From positions 1 to 8,235 of the forward strand of contig JAMDCS010000115.1 of the NCBI GenBank assembly GCA_023488835.1: DNA of 8,235 bases. The letters are read 5' to 3'. Position numbers and translations under genes: made by a program. The first letter of the stretch is position 1. Every line of letters starts with the position of its first letter. Shown here piece after piece: positions 3,781-8,235 of the stretch. Source of the stretch: Candidatus Bathyarchaeota archaeon (GTDB lineage: Archaea > Thermoproteota > Bathyarchaeia > Bathyarchaeales > UBA233). The notes below the pieces were generated by a model. That model saw nothing but the letters and a program-made list of their open reading frames with translations. It searched no databases and was not told where the DNA came from.

Positions 3781-4689
3781 TTATTTGATGATTTTTTCCC
3801 AGCTTGCAACCCGATCAAGGACTTCCTGCACTGGTTTTCCACCGTAACTCTTAAGCCGCTCTCTGAGTTGGGTGTTTTCGACGGATGCTTTCTGAAAATC
3901 CAGCATCTGGCTGGCGCCGTCAGTTAAATAGAGGAATCCGTCTGAACCTGCGCGTGCACAGCGAACCGTAACCGTCAGCAACTCCTCGGTAGTTGGCACA
4001 TCCTTGGGGTTGTCGCCTGGACCGAAAACGTACAGGCTGATGTAGAAGGGTTTTTTGAGCAGCTTCTTGAAGCCGCGTGCAAGCATCTCCCAGTACCAGG
4101 GTGTGGCATAGTTTTTGCTGAACATCACAACATTGAAGGCGTCAGCGTACTTGGCTAAATCGTCAAAGTCTACGCCGTAACGTTCACAGGAGGTTATGGG
4201 GTCAGGTTGGAGGCTTAAGACGAGTTCTTTTTTGACTGCATCTCGAATTTGGGCAATGTAGTCGGTGACTTCTTTTCTGCGCCATTCAAACCAGTTAAGA
4301 CCGCTCTTTTTCCATAGCTCGTTGCATCGAGGGCATGTACAGTGGTCATGGTCAGCGAAATATTGGCTATTTAACCATATCCCCGGCGATTGTCTATCCA
4401 CATCCGCGATGTATTTGAGTTGTTCCTCTCGATATTCCGGATGCGTCGCGCACACGACACTCCAGTAGATGTTGAAGTTGTTGTTTCCAAATTTGGCGGG
4501 ACCCAGAGGGGATTGGGAAACCCAGTCAGGATGGTTTTGTACGGTTAGAGTGTCTGCGAAGACGGCGATGTTGCTGTACATGTCTTGCACTGGCGGAAGC
4601 CTTATGCCTGTTTCTGGTTTGACCCGCAGAACGTGGAAGTCGAAACCTTGGGGTTTTTGGGGTTGAAACGTGAATGAGCCAAACTTCAT
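3781..4689 (-). CDS. Putative TIM-barrel glycoside-hydrolase-like protein, function unknown
   Basis: This is a 302-residue protein without signal peptide or membrane segments, so it is probably cytoplasmic. Alternating hydrophobic strands and amphipathic helices suggest a (beta/alpha) barrel. The central block, PGIWLNSQYFADHDHCTCPRC (102-122) then WFEWRRKEVTDYIAQIRDAV (133-152), resembles uncharacterised glycosyl-hydrolase-like families. In those, a strand ending in acidic residues precedes a Cys-x-Cys-x-x-Cys loop and a W-x-x-W-R helix. Acidic or His candidates for a catalytic or metal site are D113, H114, D115, H116 and E135, with C117/C119/C122 beside them. Later strands include ELVLSLQPDP, AFNVVMFSKNY, PFYISLYVFGPGD and GFLYLTDGAS. 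No catalytic pair can be assigned with confidence. It starts at ATG 4689, about 43 bases after a TATA-like box, and leads the minus-strand run. The fold assignment is moderate; the substrate is unknown. Confidence 0.75.
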   Translation of the reverse strand: MKFGSFTFQPQKPQGFDFHVLRVKPETGIRLPPVQDMYSNIAVFADTLTVQNHPDWVSQSPLGPAKFGNNNFNIYWSVVCATHPEYREEQLKYIADVDRQSPGIWLNSQYFADHDHCTCPRCNELWKKSGLNWFEWRRKEVTDYIAQIRDAVKKELVLSLQPDPITSCERYGVDFDDLAKYADAFNVVMFSKNYATPWYWEMLARGFKKLLKKPFYISLYVFGPGDNPKDVPTTEELLTVTVRCARAGSDGFLYLTDGASQMLDFQKASVENTQLRERLKSYGGKPVQEVLDRVASWEKIIK

Positions 4690-4726
4690 AATCTGGTGCG
4701 CCTTTTACGCAAAGAAGCGATTGTGT

Positions 4727-4738
4727 CGTTATAAGGTT
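4727..4738 (-). promoter_or_regulatory. Possible TATA box for the hydrolase-like gene
   Basis: On the minus strand the sequence reads AACCTTATAACG, centred near 4732. Starting 25 bases on would place the mRNA 5' end near 4707, with a leader of about 18 bases containing AAAGGCG, a weak ribosome-binding match, before ATG 4689. Confidence 0.4.
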
Positions 4739-5118
4739 TTTGTGCAAAGGGCGCTGTTTCTTAATTGTTTAGTTTTATGATGCGTTAGTCTCCTTTTTTG
4801 GAAATAATTGCGCTCTGAGCGCTGCCTGTGGCAACCTGCACAACCAGAAAGCAACGGACACCTCAATCTGATGACAAAAAGCAATCTTTATCGCATTCCA
4901 CTGGTTGTTGATGTGGTATAGGGACTTTTCTGCCACAACTACTAAAGAAAAAGCAAACATTAAGAACTAAACATCTCTGAAACCCAAGAAACTAGAAACT
5001 GAACTGCGCTGGGGAATTTATGTGTGGTTTGGCTCTTTAGAGCTGTTTTAAGAAACATTGAGAGAAAATGTGGTTAAACAAGTGAATAGGCTGATTGTGT
5101 TTTTATGTTCAACTGGGT

Positions 5119-5276: not shown

Positions 5277-5747
5277 GTGAGAAAAAAACTAAACCAAAAA
5301 TCGGAAATCGACAAAGTTGATCTCCAAATTCTAAGTCTACTGCAGGAAGATTGCCATTTAAGCTTCCGAAAACTAGCTGACAAAATACATATCTCAGGCG
5401 TCATGGCGGCGTCAAGAATCGAAAACCTTGAGGACAAAAGCATAGTAAAGGGCTATACTACAATTCTCGACCCAATTAAGTTAGGGTATGATTTAACGGC
5501 TGTAATTTTCATTCAAACTGAGGGCGGGTACATTAAGGATTTAGAAAATGAGTTGTCACAAATAGCTAACGTTATTGCTATTTATGAAATTACGGGGGAC
5601 TTTGATGTAGTGGCGATTGTTAAGCTTAAAGATAGGGATAGTTTGAATACTTTGATTAAGAATTTGCTTGTGACTCCACACATCAAGAAAACGATGACTA
5701 ACATTACGCTTAATGTTGTGAAAGAGGACTTTAAGATAGAGCTGTGA
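5277..5747 (+). CDS. Lrp/AsnC family transcriptional regulator
   Basis: From GTG 5277 this encodes 156 residues, the usual length for the family. Residues ~11-60 form the winged helix-turn-helix (IDKVDLQILSLLQED, then FRKLADKIHIS and SRIENLEDKSIVKGY). The linker TTILDPIKLGYDLTAVIFIQ follows. Residues ~70-150 form the RAM ligand-binding and dimerisation domain, with the conserved turn YEITGDFDVVAIVKLKD (103-119). Such proteins form dimers or octamers that bind amino acids and repress or activate transcription; in archaea the Lrp-type Ptr2 activates from sites just upstream of the TATA box. The gene lies 162 bases upstream of amt on the same strand, which makes it a candidate regulator of nitrogen transport, by position only. 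A TTG start at 5247 would add ten residues but lacks a ribosome binding site. Confidence 0.93.
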   Translation: MRKKLNQKSEIDKVDLQILSLLQEDCHLSFRKLADKIHISGVMAASRIENLEDKSIVKGYTTILDPIKLGYDLTAVIFIQTEGGYIKDLENELSQIANVIAIYEITGDFDVVAIVKLKDRDSLNTLIKNLLVTPHIKKTMTNITLNVVKEDFKIEL

Positions 5748-5763: not shown

Positions 5764-5840
5764 AGGATAATTTTTATTCATCAGTTAATATATGCATTTT
5801 ATTGCGTAATTTATGTAAATATTTCCACTTTTTCGTAAAA

Positions 5841-5859
5841 GTTATGAACAAATCACAAC
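5841..5859. promoter_or_regulatory. Putative operator upstream of amt: GTTATGA-N5-TCACAAC
   Basis: This inverted repeat has 7-base arms, a 5-base spacer (ACAAA) and one mismatch. It matches the perfect copy at 7587-7605; the identical core TAAAAGTTATGAACAAATCA spans 5836-5855 and 7582-7601, preceded by TTTTTC in both. It ends five bases before the TTATAT box, the position used by archaeal activators next to the BRE. The binding protein is unknown; the adjacent Lrp-type protein is a candidate. Confidence 0.75.
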
Positions 5860-5861
5860 TA

Positions 5862-5872
5862 CACTTATATTA
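5862..5872 (+). promoter_or_regulatory. TATA box of amt
   Basis: CACTTATATTA is a strong archaeal TATA box. TTATAT starts at 5865, 45 bases before ATG 5910, predicting a short leader of about 18 bases. It lies 24 bases after the first base of the operator, the same as in the permease promoter. Confidence 0.7.
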
Positions 5873-5899
5873 CATACGTTCTAATCGTCTTATAAAAAT

Positions 5900-5904
5900 G
5901 GTGA
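5900..5904 (+). promoter_or_regulatory. Ribosome binding site of amt
   Basis: GGTGA matches the GGTGA of the archaeal Shine-Dalgarno consensus and lies five bases before ATG 5910. This supports the longer N-terminus over the internal ATG at 5985, which has no such site. Confidence 0.6.
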
Positions 5905-5909
5905 AATAA

Positions 5910-7457
5910 ATGAGAAAAAGACGAATACTAACCAAAGCATCAAACTTAGCGCAAAAAGCACTAGAAAGACACTCAGCAATCTTCATGAAAAAGAAGTTCT
6001 TTATCCTCGCAGGCATACTAGTTACTTGCTTAGCATTGAGCATCGGTCGAGCATATGCACAAACAGGCGACCCCCTAACAGACACAGGCACAGCCGTAAG
6101 CATCGGTTGGACCCTAGCCATGGGTGGCTTAGTCTGGTTCATGCAGCTTGGCTTTGCTTTCCTCGGTGCAGGCTACATCAGACAGAAAAACCAAGTCAAC
6201 TACTGGTCCAAAAGCTACATCGACTTTAGCATCGGTGTAGTCATCTTCGCATTACTCGGTTTCGGCTTAATGTTCGGTGGTTCACACGCAGCTTTCCCAA
6301 CAGGCATTGATTCTGCAGGCGCAGTTATCTACACACCCATCAAAGGCATAGACGCAGGCAACTCATTCATTGGCTGGAGTGGCTTCGCCCTAACTGGTGA
6401 CGCTTACAACGGCTTGACATTGGTGTACTTCTTCTGGGAAGCGGTCTTCGCAGCTACCTCAGTTACAATCGTAGCAGGCATGGTTGCAGAACGCCTAAAG
6501 TTCCAAGCATACCTAATCTACACGGTACTGATCAACATCTTAATCTACCCTGTTTATGGCCACTGGGTCTGGGGTGGAGGATGGTTAGCAACACTGCCCT
6601 TAGGTGTCGGTGTCAGAGACTTCGCAGGTTCAGGAGTTGTGCACGCGGTCGGTGGCTTCACAGGATTAGCTGCATGTCTGCTCGTGGGTCCAAGAATAGG
6701 TAAGTATGACAAAAACGGCAAACCACGGTCTTTCGGCTACACCAACGTACCCTACATCGTTATGGGCACAATGATTCTGTTCCTAGGTTGGTTCGGTTTC
6801 AACCCAGGAAGTACACTTAGCCCGCTTGACTTCAGAACACCCTTAGTCGCAGTCACCACGTATCTGGCCGGCGGGATGGGAGCAACAATGGCAGTCGCCA
6901 TCACATACCTAGACAAGAAGAACTTTAAGGGCGCGGACATTCAGGCAATCTGCACTGGAGCCTTAGCAGGACTCGTCGCTGTCACGGCATCGACCGCATA
7001 CATTGCTCCATGGGCATCGTTAATCATCGGACTCATCGCTGCTCCACTGGCAATCTACGGAAACTTCTTCGTGGAACGCAAACTCAAAATTGACGATCCA
7101 GTTGGTGCATTCGGCATACACGGACTCAACGGTATATTTGGGTTGCTTGCAGTAGGCTTGTTTGCAGACGGAACATATGGCGGAGTAAAGGGTATCTTCA
7201 TGAACGGTGCTGCGGGCTTAGGACAGTTAGCTGCTCAGTTGGTGGACATTGCGGTCGTTGCAGGCTTTAGCTTCGGTATGGGTCTATTGATCTTTGGTAT
7301 AATCAAGTACACAATCGGCTTACGCGCGCCAGTCAAGGATGAAGTTGAAGGACTCGATATAACTGAACATGGATTCACTGCTTACCCAGAAGTTGAAATG
7401 AAGCCAGAGGCTCCAGAATGGGTTAACGCTGAAACAGATATAGAGAAGAAGAAATAA
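5910..7457 (+). CDS. amt: Amt family ammonium transporter
   Basis: This is a 515-residue ammonium channel/transporter of the Amt/MEP/Rh family, acting in the cytoplasmic membrane. By motif alignment with E. coli AmtB, the conserved residues are the twin pore histidines H245 and H404 (H168/H318), D237 in DFAG (D160), W221 (W148), F180 and F297 (gate F107/F215) and S301 (S219). AmtB F103 is replaced by W176. About 11 membrane helices follow an N-terminal region with a signal-peptide-like stretch (MKKKFFILAG from residue 26, AYA|Q near 50), itself preceded by 25 basic residues. The C-terminal tail has the Amt motif VEGLDITEHGFTAYP and ~25 further charged residues. AmtB has 428 residues, so both ends are extended. 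ATG 5910 is chosen for its ribosome binding site; ATG 5985 would yield a plain signal peptide. No glnK follows. C-ending Ile/Phe/Tyr codons are favoured, suggesting high expression. Confidence 0.97.
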   Translation: MRKRRILTKASNLAQKALERHSAIFMKKKFFILAGILVTCLALSIGRAYAQTGDPLTDTGTAVSIGWTLAMGGLVWFMQLGFAFLGAGYIRQKNQVNYWSKSYIDFSIGVVIFALLGFGLMFGGSHAAFPTGIDSAGAVIYTPIKGIDAGNSFIGWSGFALTGDAYNGLTLVYFFWEAVFAATSVTIVAGMVAERLKFQAYLIYTVLINILIYPVYGHWVWGGGWLATLPLGVGVRDFAGSGVVHAVGGFTGLAACLLVGPRIGKYDKNGKPRSFGYTNVPYIVMGTMILFLGWFGFNPGSTLSPLDFRTPLVAVTTYLAGGMGATMAVAITYLDKKNFKGADIQAICTGALAGLVAVTASTAYIAPWASLIIGLIAAPLAIYGNFFVERKLKIDDPVGAFGIHGLNGIFGLLAVGLFADGTYGGVKGIFMNGAAGLGQLAAQLVDIAVVAGFSFGMGLLIFGIIKYTIGLRAPVKDEVEGLDITEHGFTAYPEVEMKPEAPEWVNAETDIEKKK

Positions 7458-7483
7458 TAACAAGCCAATCAAAATAAATTCCT

Positions 7484-7507
7484 ACTTTTTCTTTTTTTTA
7501 AAATTTT
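7484..7507 (+). terminator. Oligo-T terminator after amt
   Basis: A pyrimidine-rich run with T5 and T8 tracts (ACTTTTTCTTTTTTTT) followed by AAAATTTT lies 27 bases after a double TAA stop. Archaeal intrinsic termination uses such T-tracts and needs no hairpin, so amt is probably transcribed separately from the permease gene. Confidence 0.65.
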
Positions 7508-7566
7508 AGCTGTACTAATTCATTATCAAAAACAATTGTTTAGTTAAATTCTCTGTAGCTGTACAG
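7507..7566. repeat. Short direct and inverted repeats upstream of the permease gene
   Basis: TAGCTGTAC occurs at 7507-7515 and 7556-7564, 49 bases apart. The second copy lies within CTGTA-GCTG-TACAG (7553-7566), which contains the perfect palindrome CTGTACAG (7559-7566); TTACAG follows at 7569-7574. These may be additional protein-binding sites, but I see no counterpart upstream of amt. Confidence 0.4.
7531..7540. repeat. Palindrome AACAATTGTT upstream of the permease gene (copy 2)
   Basis: This is identical to the palindrome at 5754-5763. Its centre lies about 60 bases before the operator centre, against about 91 upstream of amt, a difference of 31 bases or roughly three helical turns. Confidence 0.45.
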
Positions 7567-7586
7567 GTTTACAGTTTTTCCTAAAA

Positions 7587-7605
7587 GTTATGAACAAATC
7601 ATAAC
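7587..7605. promoter_or_regulatory. Putative operator upstream of the permease gene: GTTATGA-N5-TCATAAC (perfect)
   Basis: This is a perfect inverted repeat with 7-base arms and the same ACAAA spacer as the amt copy. It lies five bases before the TTATAT box and is flanked on the left by the same TTTTTC-TAAAA context. Two conserved copies at the same spacing before two transporter genes indicate shared control. Confidence 0.78.
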
Positions 7606-7607
7606 CA

Positions 7608-7617
7608 ACTTTATATC
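7608..7617 (+). promoter_or_regulatory. TATA box of the permease gene
   Basis: ACTTTATATC contains TTATAT from 7611, 43 bases before ATG 7654 and 24 bases after the operator start. The predicted mRNA starts near 7638 with a leader of about 16 bases. Confidence 0.65.
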
Positions 7618-7653: not shown

Positions 7654-8166
7654 ATGAGTGCACTGCCAATCGATGCCCAAATCATAATTCTGCCCATTTT
7701 CATAGCTTGCTATGCGCTAGCTTTAAGCCGCAAAGTGAAACTCGCCTATGTATCAGTGGGTTCCTTAGCCACGTTAATCATTATCGGCGTTATATCCTGG
7801 CAAGATACAATCTTCAAAGCAATACAGTGGGACGTGCTGGCTGTTATCTGGGGTTTCATGATGGTTTCATTCATATTCTCAGAAAGCAAAATGCCCGAAT
7901 TAATCGCCAACAAAATATTAACTCACATAAAAATTGAAAAATACGCCCTCTTAGCAATCTGTGCCGTCGCAGCATTTCTGTCAGCCTTTATGGCAAACGT
8001 TGCAGTCCTTTTTCTGATGGCGCCCGTGGCTATTCAGATGGCCCGAAAACTTGGCTCGCCACTTTTCCCATACATAGTTTCCGTAGGTGTTTCCGCAAAC
8101 ATGGTTACTACAACCACCAAGCAGAAAGCGCAATCTTTATGCGAAGAGTTTACACTTATCCCTTAA
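7654..8166 (+). CDS. ArsB/NhaD/SLC13-type permease (ion transporter superfamily), N-terminal part, prematurely ended
   Basis: The 170 residues form about five membrane segments (~8-24, 28-47, 58-76, 96-130, 137-152). They match the N-terminal repeat of ion transporter superfamily permeases: QWDVLAVIWGFMMVSFIFSES, then AFLSAFMANVAVLFLMAPVAIQMARKLG, then FPYIVSVGVSANMVTTTT. In intact members (400-450 residues) the last motif continues into a DPP-type loop and the rest of the transporter. Here it changes after about codon 155 (near base 8119) to a polar, unrelated tail, KQKAQSLCEEFTLIP, and stops. No frame after 8120 restores the family, so this is not a simple frameshift. It is probably a disrupted gene, or the join is an assembly fault. 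ATG 7654 is the only in-frame start; GAGG directly abuts it, too close to act. The substrate (arsenite, carboxylate or Na+/H+) cannot be told. Confidence 0.8.
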   Translation: MSALPIDAQIIILPIFIACYALALSRKVKLAYVSVGSLATLIIIGVISWQDTIFKAIQWDVLAVIWGFMMVSFIFSESKMPELIANKILTHIKIEKYALLAICAVAAFLSAFMANVAVLFLMAPVAIQMARKLGSPLFPYIVSVGVSANMVTTTTKQKAQSLCEEFTLIP

Positions 8167-8235
8167 AAAATCCCTAAAATAACAAGTTGAAAAATCGCGA
8201 CCTAAAAAATAGGGCTTGAAGGGTGCAATCAGGCG
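8121..8235. other. Unrecognised sequence after the break in the permease gene
   Basis: This contains CGCA-N7-TGCG (8129-8143), an imperfect tandem ATCCCTTAAAA / ATCCCTAAAA (8158 and 8170, 12-base step), and CCCTA (8172-8176) facing TAGGG (8210-8214). On the minus strand one frame is open from the window end to about 8140 (about 32 codons), with no family I recognise. It could be the edge of a mobile element, a neighbouring gene's 3' end, or a chimeric assembly join. Confidence 0.35.

Follow-up and report, generated by a model that had tools for sequence, protein, structure and literature searches.

The archaeal Lrp activators Ptr2, LysM and Ss-LrpB have their sites, in the available text of the source, a few bases upstream of the BRE/TATA at a constrained distance (PMC2995911), and the promoter element described here lies in the same way. 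In haloarchaea the Lrp gene adjoins nitrogen genes, as it does at this locus (PMC2894021, in the parts accessible). The NrpR regulon of methanogens also covers nitrogen genes, including glnK1/amtB1 in M. mazei, according to the excerpted text of PMC10714827. Among ribbon-helix-helix (RHH) proteins, the NikR operator is given as GTATGA-N16-TCATAC in the available portion of PMC7055735, and oligomerisation of RHH proteins on repeated sites is described in that of PMC5569661.

Two promoters of the window share a three-part element

The window (the whole stretch of DNA analysed) comprises 8235 bases, and its gene content was named by profile searches (Pfam, NCBIfam; Table 1). The nearest named relatives of Lrp1 are in two Bathyarchaeota records, L001 (84%) and L002 (82%), which share the MarC-unknown-Lrp gene order of the window and from which the window is taken to be bathyarchaeal. 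In both records the place of amt behind Lrp1 is taken by Kdp-like potassium-transport genes (identified by eye), with stand-alone RAM-domain ORFs on their flanks. Past about residue 155, at positions 8119-8235 of the window, the permease ORF matches none of the compared loci, and this end may be either a contig-end chimera or a rearrangement.

Table 1 Genes and promoter features of the window
Feature	Position	Strand	Basis or remark
Upstream genes: sensor kinase; small protein; MarC-family protein; 302-residue protein			Small protein without Pfam match; 302-residue protein without match
Lrp1, Lrp/AsnC-family regulator	5277..5747	+	PF01037 and HTH_AsnC; closest solved chain 8q90
Half-site H1 of the amt element, TTCGTAA	5832..5838	+	Sequence
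Palindrome before amt (H2 TTATGAA, 5842-5848; H3 ATCACAA, 5852-5858)	5841..5859	+	Full-matrix score 60.0, 45-mer from 5827
TATA-like TTATAT of amt	5865..5870	+	Sequence
amt, ammonium transporter	5910..7457	+	PF00909, 1.4e-105; TIGR00836 above cut-off
Half-site H1 of the permease element, TTCCTAA	7578..7584	+	Sequence
Palindrome before the permease gene (H2, 7588-7594; H3, 7598-7604)	7587..7605	+	Full-matrix score 59.3, 45-mer from 7573
TATA-like TTATAT of the permease gene	7611..7616	+	Sequence
Start of permease ORF, CitMHS family	7654..8166	+	93% identity to G102 copy over residues 1-155, then diverges

Both copies of the palindrome GTTATGAACAAATCAYAAC were found where the original prediction had placed them, reading GTTATGAACAAATCACAAC before amt and GTTATGAACAAATCATAAC before the permease gene. 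As it had also stated, an identical 20-mer, TAAAAGTTATGAACAAATCA, encloses both palindromes, and in both promoters TTATAT begins 24 bases downstream of where the operator starts. No other place in the window has the exact palindrome. With up to three mismatches allowed, we obtained four matches (two places, both strands) compared with a shuffle mean of 1.19; because 14 of 200 shuffles of the window also reached four, the window by itself offers modest evidence. The two sites scored 58.8 and 58.3 bits with a matrix trained without them, and with the full matrix no other place in the window scored above -3.7.

The consensus of 99 sites with full flanks was TTCATAA-N3-TTATGAA-CAA-ATCWYAA-N6-TTATAT, that is, three TTCATAA-type heptamers in alternating orientation with centres 10 bp apart, the last of which ends six bases before the TATA box. 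Across these sites the mean match to TTCATAA was 5.94/7 for H1, 6.80/7 for H2 and 4.80/7 for H3; flanking controls matched at 2.5 to 3.5 of 7 and a possible fourth heptamer farther upstream at 2.7. H1 matched at this level although it lay outside the longer search pattern that included the TATA box (see below). The palindrome had been taken to be the whole site, bound by a single dimer, which was not borne out: it corresponds to H2 and H3 of the three heptamers, and the upstream third half-site and the asymmetry of the element had been missed. At BRE positions -5/-4, mostly C/T was found in 71 regulon promoters, versus A or T/A in 48 others chosen by their TATA-like match.

The element recurs across the class

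We searched a set of 256 genomes from the class to which G001 belongs, G001 being the genome of record L001. The exact palindrome was present at 16 places in 12 genomes and the reversed control pattern in none of the 256, indicating that the element is real. With the TATA box absent from the query, TTATAT stood at the same offset in 12 of the 16 exact places and was missing from the other four. The TATA box was also at one offset in 66 of 73 core matches; because those regions had been preselected with TATA in the pattern, only the count of 12 in 16 is an unbiased measure of spacing.

A longer pattern that included the TATA box, with up to three mismatches, gave 99 matches in 36 of the 256 genomes compared with about 10 control matches, and a looser pattern reached 54 of the 256, with control matches scattered. 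For scoring, a matrix was built from 70 sites, which themselves score at least 36 bits, and 20 Markov shuffles of 122 kb peaked at 5 bits. At a threshold of 20 bits, the regions examined held 100 sites: the window contributes two, and the other 98 come from 31 genomes. We regard the regulon as almost certainly real. When amt promoters of the window, G102, G101 and G097 were compared, the element was near-unchanged and its flanks had diverged.

Nitrogen genes and small ORFs lie behind the sites

Among the 100 sites, nine precede amt (one of these being the window's), six a KaiC-like gene followed by amt, six the CitMHS-type permease gene, six an amino-acid permease gene that in each case lies behind an ORF of 35-42 aa, four glnA, one asnB, one lrp1 (in G097) and four a gene for a stand-alone RAM-domain protein. 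A further 55 precede small ORFs (65 aa or shorter), of which 36 have a hydrophobic stretch; this count comes from a permissive script, some of whose assignments are weak. Eight sites had no assignable gene, one of them standing at a probable amt start at a contig end (G140). Profile searches with representatives (Pfam, NCBIfam) placed GlnA and asparagine synthase B above cut-off, and the other representatives were named as AA_permease_2, KaiC, AsnC ligand-binding domain, Amt and CitMHS.

Several small ORFs are paired, a predicted soluble peptide of 19-31 aa being followed by a predicted single hydrophobic helix of 34-38 aa. Because they have a promoter element in common with glnA and amt, the short ORFs are marked as likely genes. 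Tiny-ORF families were seen behind sites in L203, L225, L249 and others, as were Cys-rich peptides. Behind the site at 6998 in L211, an early in-frame stop interrupts the glnA-like frame of G002, pointing to either an assembly error or a broken gene. The KaiC-like ATPase gene lies between site and amt in six genomes (L214, L236, L240, L243, L245 and L246), and in G143 a PII gene is located behind the amt that follows the KaiC-like gene.

Looking from the amt genes, we found a co-oriented site at most 1.4 kb upstream for 14 of 56 amt matches, in 14 of the 30 site-bearing genomes with amt; eight of these sites stand directly before amt and six lie on the far side of the KaiC-like gene. The 42 matches with no near site include many from tandem amt pairs and a few gene fragments, suggesting that one amt type is part of the regulon and the other apparently lies outside it. 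NrpR (PF01995) was above cut-off in one of 30 site-bearing genomes (G118), with one weak match below cut-off in G088, and in two of 14 control genomes. PII (PF00543) was found in three of the 30 and in 13 of the 14 control genomes. Both searches covered all site-bearing genomes but G197, the 31st. The window contains no exact GGAA-N6-TTCC; with one mismatch there are five matches compared with 3.91 expected, which does not exceed chance, and none of them is at the two promoters.

These data bear on the remaining claims of the original prediction, which proposed a possibly undescribed nitrogen-control site, unlike that of NrpR, serving two genes. The tie to nitrogen is supported by the sites before amt, the KaiC-like gene with amt, glnA and asnB, and the motif is present in amt promoters of relatives. 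That the element is not of the NrpR type agrees with the absence of an exact GGAA-N6-TTCC from the window and with the single NrpR match above cut-off among the 30 site-bearing genomes. The open-licence literature searched shows no description of the element, and no nitrogen control, promoter element or regulon described for Bathyarchaeia. A regulon of two genes did not hold up, as the 100 sites precede many types of target. We consider that nitrogen is probably the signal, and ammonium or glutamine status would be the obvious form for it to take.

An RHH protein is a candidate reader of the element

A CopG-type RHH protein probably reads the element, judging from gene positions and site architecture. 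In regions taken because they hold sites, all 19 RHH genes found, from 19 genomes, end 45-246 bp ahead of a site in the same orientation, whatever gene follows; the genomes include G090, G096, G098, G100 and G197, all without a close Lrp1. In seven further site-bearing genomes, the RHH gene lies 30-50 bp behind the Lrp1 gene. Three of these Lrp1-RHH pairs (G127, G128 and G132) were known before we predicted the arrangement for G131, G126, G074, G075 and G159, four of which have the RHH gene. Where genomes have no canonical sites, none of the 12 Lrp1 neighbourhoods examined showed an RHH gene beside Lrp1, and the stretches examined around the seven pairs held no sites of at least 10 bits. RHH was located in 26 of the 31 site-bearing genomes by a search that excluded G086, G088, G089, G129, G217 and the window.

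RHH_1 was above the curated Pfam cut-off in all five proteins tested, and the strand residues R6, T8 and A10 are invariant in 28 aligned RHH proteins. The RHH protein encoded at 4267-4812 (- strand) of L188 has a C-terminal half with a predicted fold resembling H-NOX/Bet3/V4R. Across the 99 sites, repeated short half-sites with centres 10 bp apart would lie on one helix face, a CopG-type feature. Such a ten-base pitch of short half-sites fits the cooperative RHH arrays described in the available text of PMC5569661.

Taken as a whole, we lean slightly towards an explanation, with correlated parts, in which some Bathyarchaeia, as a group, have a nitrogen-assimilation regulon whose upstream activating site is this element, read by the RHH protein. 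A CopG-type RHH protein with an H-NOX/V4R-like C-terminal half would bind the heptamers cooperatively along one helix face, its dimers taking the best-kept middle heptamer before spreading to the others. When nitrogen is short, it would help TBP/TFB onto promoters that have an unusual BRE; archaeal Lrp activators, EarA and RHH proteins that oligomerise on repeated sites offer precedents (PMC2995911, PMC5512572, PMC5569661). Lrp1, encoded beside amt or the RHH gene, may add amino-acid sensing, and the small ORFs would encode microproteins for the tuning of transporters or enzymes. Because the spacing is fixed and the BRE unusual, we infer that activation rather than repression is the moderately likely mode. 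It is conceivable, if doubtful, that NrpR/PII-poor Bathyarchaeia use a new one-component activator (RHH plus an H-NOX/V4R-like sensor) whose regulon consists mostly of unannotated microproteins, often a soluble and a single-helix peptide in one operon, replacing PII in tuning transporters and glutamine synthetase.

Alternative explanations

The window holds just two copies of the element, as would be expected from chance or from one recently duplicated promoter, but this explanation has next to no probability across the class: the reversed control pattern found nothing in 256 genomes, and in G099, G102, G131 and G139 the same two genes each have the element before them, in line with the earlier view that a recent promoter duplication was unlikely. 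A general promoter or stress element, with small ORFs as its main targets and nitrogen genes incidental to it, would fit the permissive count of 55 small-ORF sites and the 42 amt matches that have no site. However, 26 of the 100 sites precede amt, permease, KaiC-like gene with amt, glnA or asnB, and we consider this explanation very unlikely. RHH repressors are common, so the sign of regulation may be opposite to the one proposed. The element would then be a repressor operator at which RHH or Lrp1 blocks TBP/TFB until nitrogen is short, and the spacing would reflect overlap with the core promoter; the end of the element just six bases before the TATA box favors such an operator, as does the fact that archaeal viral RHH regulators mostly repress, according to the accessible text of PMC5569661. 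A repressor site need not keep exact spacing, yet 12 of 16 places keep it with TATA not queried, and the BRE differs from that of 48 other promoters, which makes repression somewhat unlikely.

The main rival to RHH as the reader is Lrp1, which is encoded beside amt. Activation would then come from TBP recruitment by Lrp1 dimers on the palindromes, with an amino acid (glutamine or other) as effector, as has been proposed for other Lrp proteins of archaea. Of 104 typed sites, 26 are no more than 5 kb from Lrp1, compared with 0.47 expected, and the count for the paralogue Lrp2 is 0 of 59. Lrp1 also adjoins a glnA-like gene (by eye) in 10 of the 17 loci where Lrp1 has no strong site (L157, L158, L161, L162, L164, L166, L167, L168, L171 and L173), weak variant sites adjoin it in G160 and G169, and a site precedes the Lrp1 gene itself in G097. 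The G160 variant site (21 bits, TTATGAAAAATTTTCAA, at 4302 in L349) is just behind Lrp1, and its core, TGAAAAATTTTCA, resembles the FL11 consensus. In the portions of the literature available, the Lrp protein of haloarchaea is an inducer of its neighbouring glnA gene (PMC2894021), and the binding sites of archaeal Lrp activators directly precede the BRE at a constrained distance (PMC2995911); the element shows this placement, a few bases upstream of the BRE/TATA. However, the recognition helix of Lrp1 has at least three forms across site-bearing genomes while the element is constant, and six of the 31 site-bearing genomes (G090, G096, G098, G100, G129 and G197) have no Lrp1 match better than 1e-31. 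A 10-bp pitch would also be tight for two HTH dimers. We judge Lrp1 to be rather unlikely as the reader and favor the RHH protein.

Comparison with known systems

The element supplies target promoters, candidate regulators (RHH and Lrp1) and a hypothesis on nitrogen control open to in vitro tests that need no cultures. It also suggests a way in which archaea without detected PII and NrpR may regulate ammonium uptake. Small proteins of M. mazei such as sP36 are under nitrogen control, and one acts on the ammonium transporter, as the available parts of PMC10714827 and PMC11456600 describe; this is an analogy only. In the same excerpts, sP36 is a protein of 61 aa with no transmembrane helix that works with GlnK1, whereas many of the ORFs here are shorter and have one hydrophobic stretch, and PII was mostly not found.

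In contrast to the NrpR regulon, GGAA-N6-TTCC, as the original prediction gave that operator, is at neither of the two sites, and NrpR is above cut-off in one of 30 site-bearing genomes. The EarA-dependent fla promoter of Methanococcus is similar in that activator sites lie directly upstream of a weak BRE (PMC5512572, in the text available), but its protein and targets are unrelated to those here. Unlike archaeal Lrp systems, the element has three heptamers at a 10-bp pitch, it stays constant while the Lrp1 helix varies, and an RHH gene lies beside the sites. RHH proteins of the CopG/NikR type and archaeal CdrS (PMC8406309, in part) share with this system the RHH_1 domain, the letters TATGA/TCATA and repeated short half-sites. 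The system described here differs from CopG, NikR and CdrS in its nitrogen and small-ORF targets, in the predicted H-NOX/V4R-like fold of the C-terminal half and in the activation that we propose.
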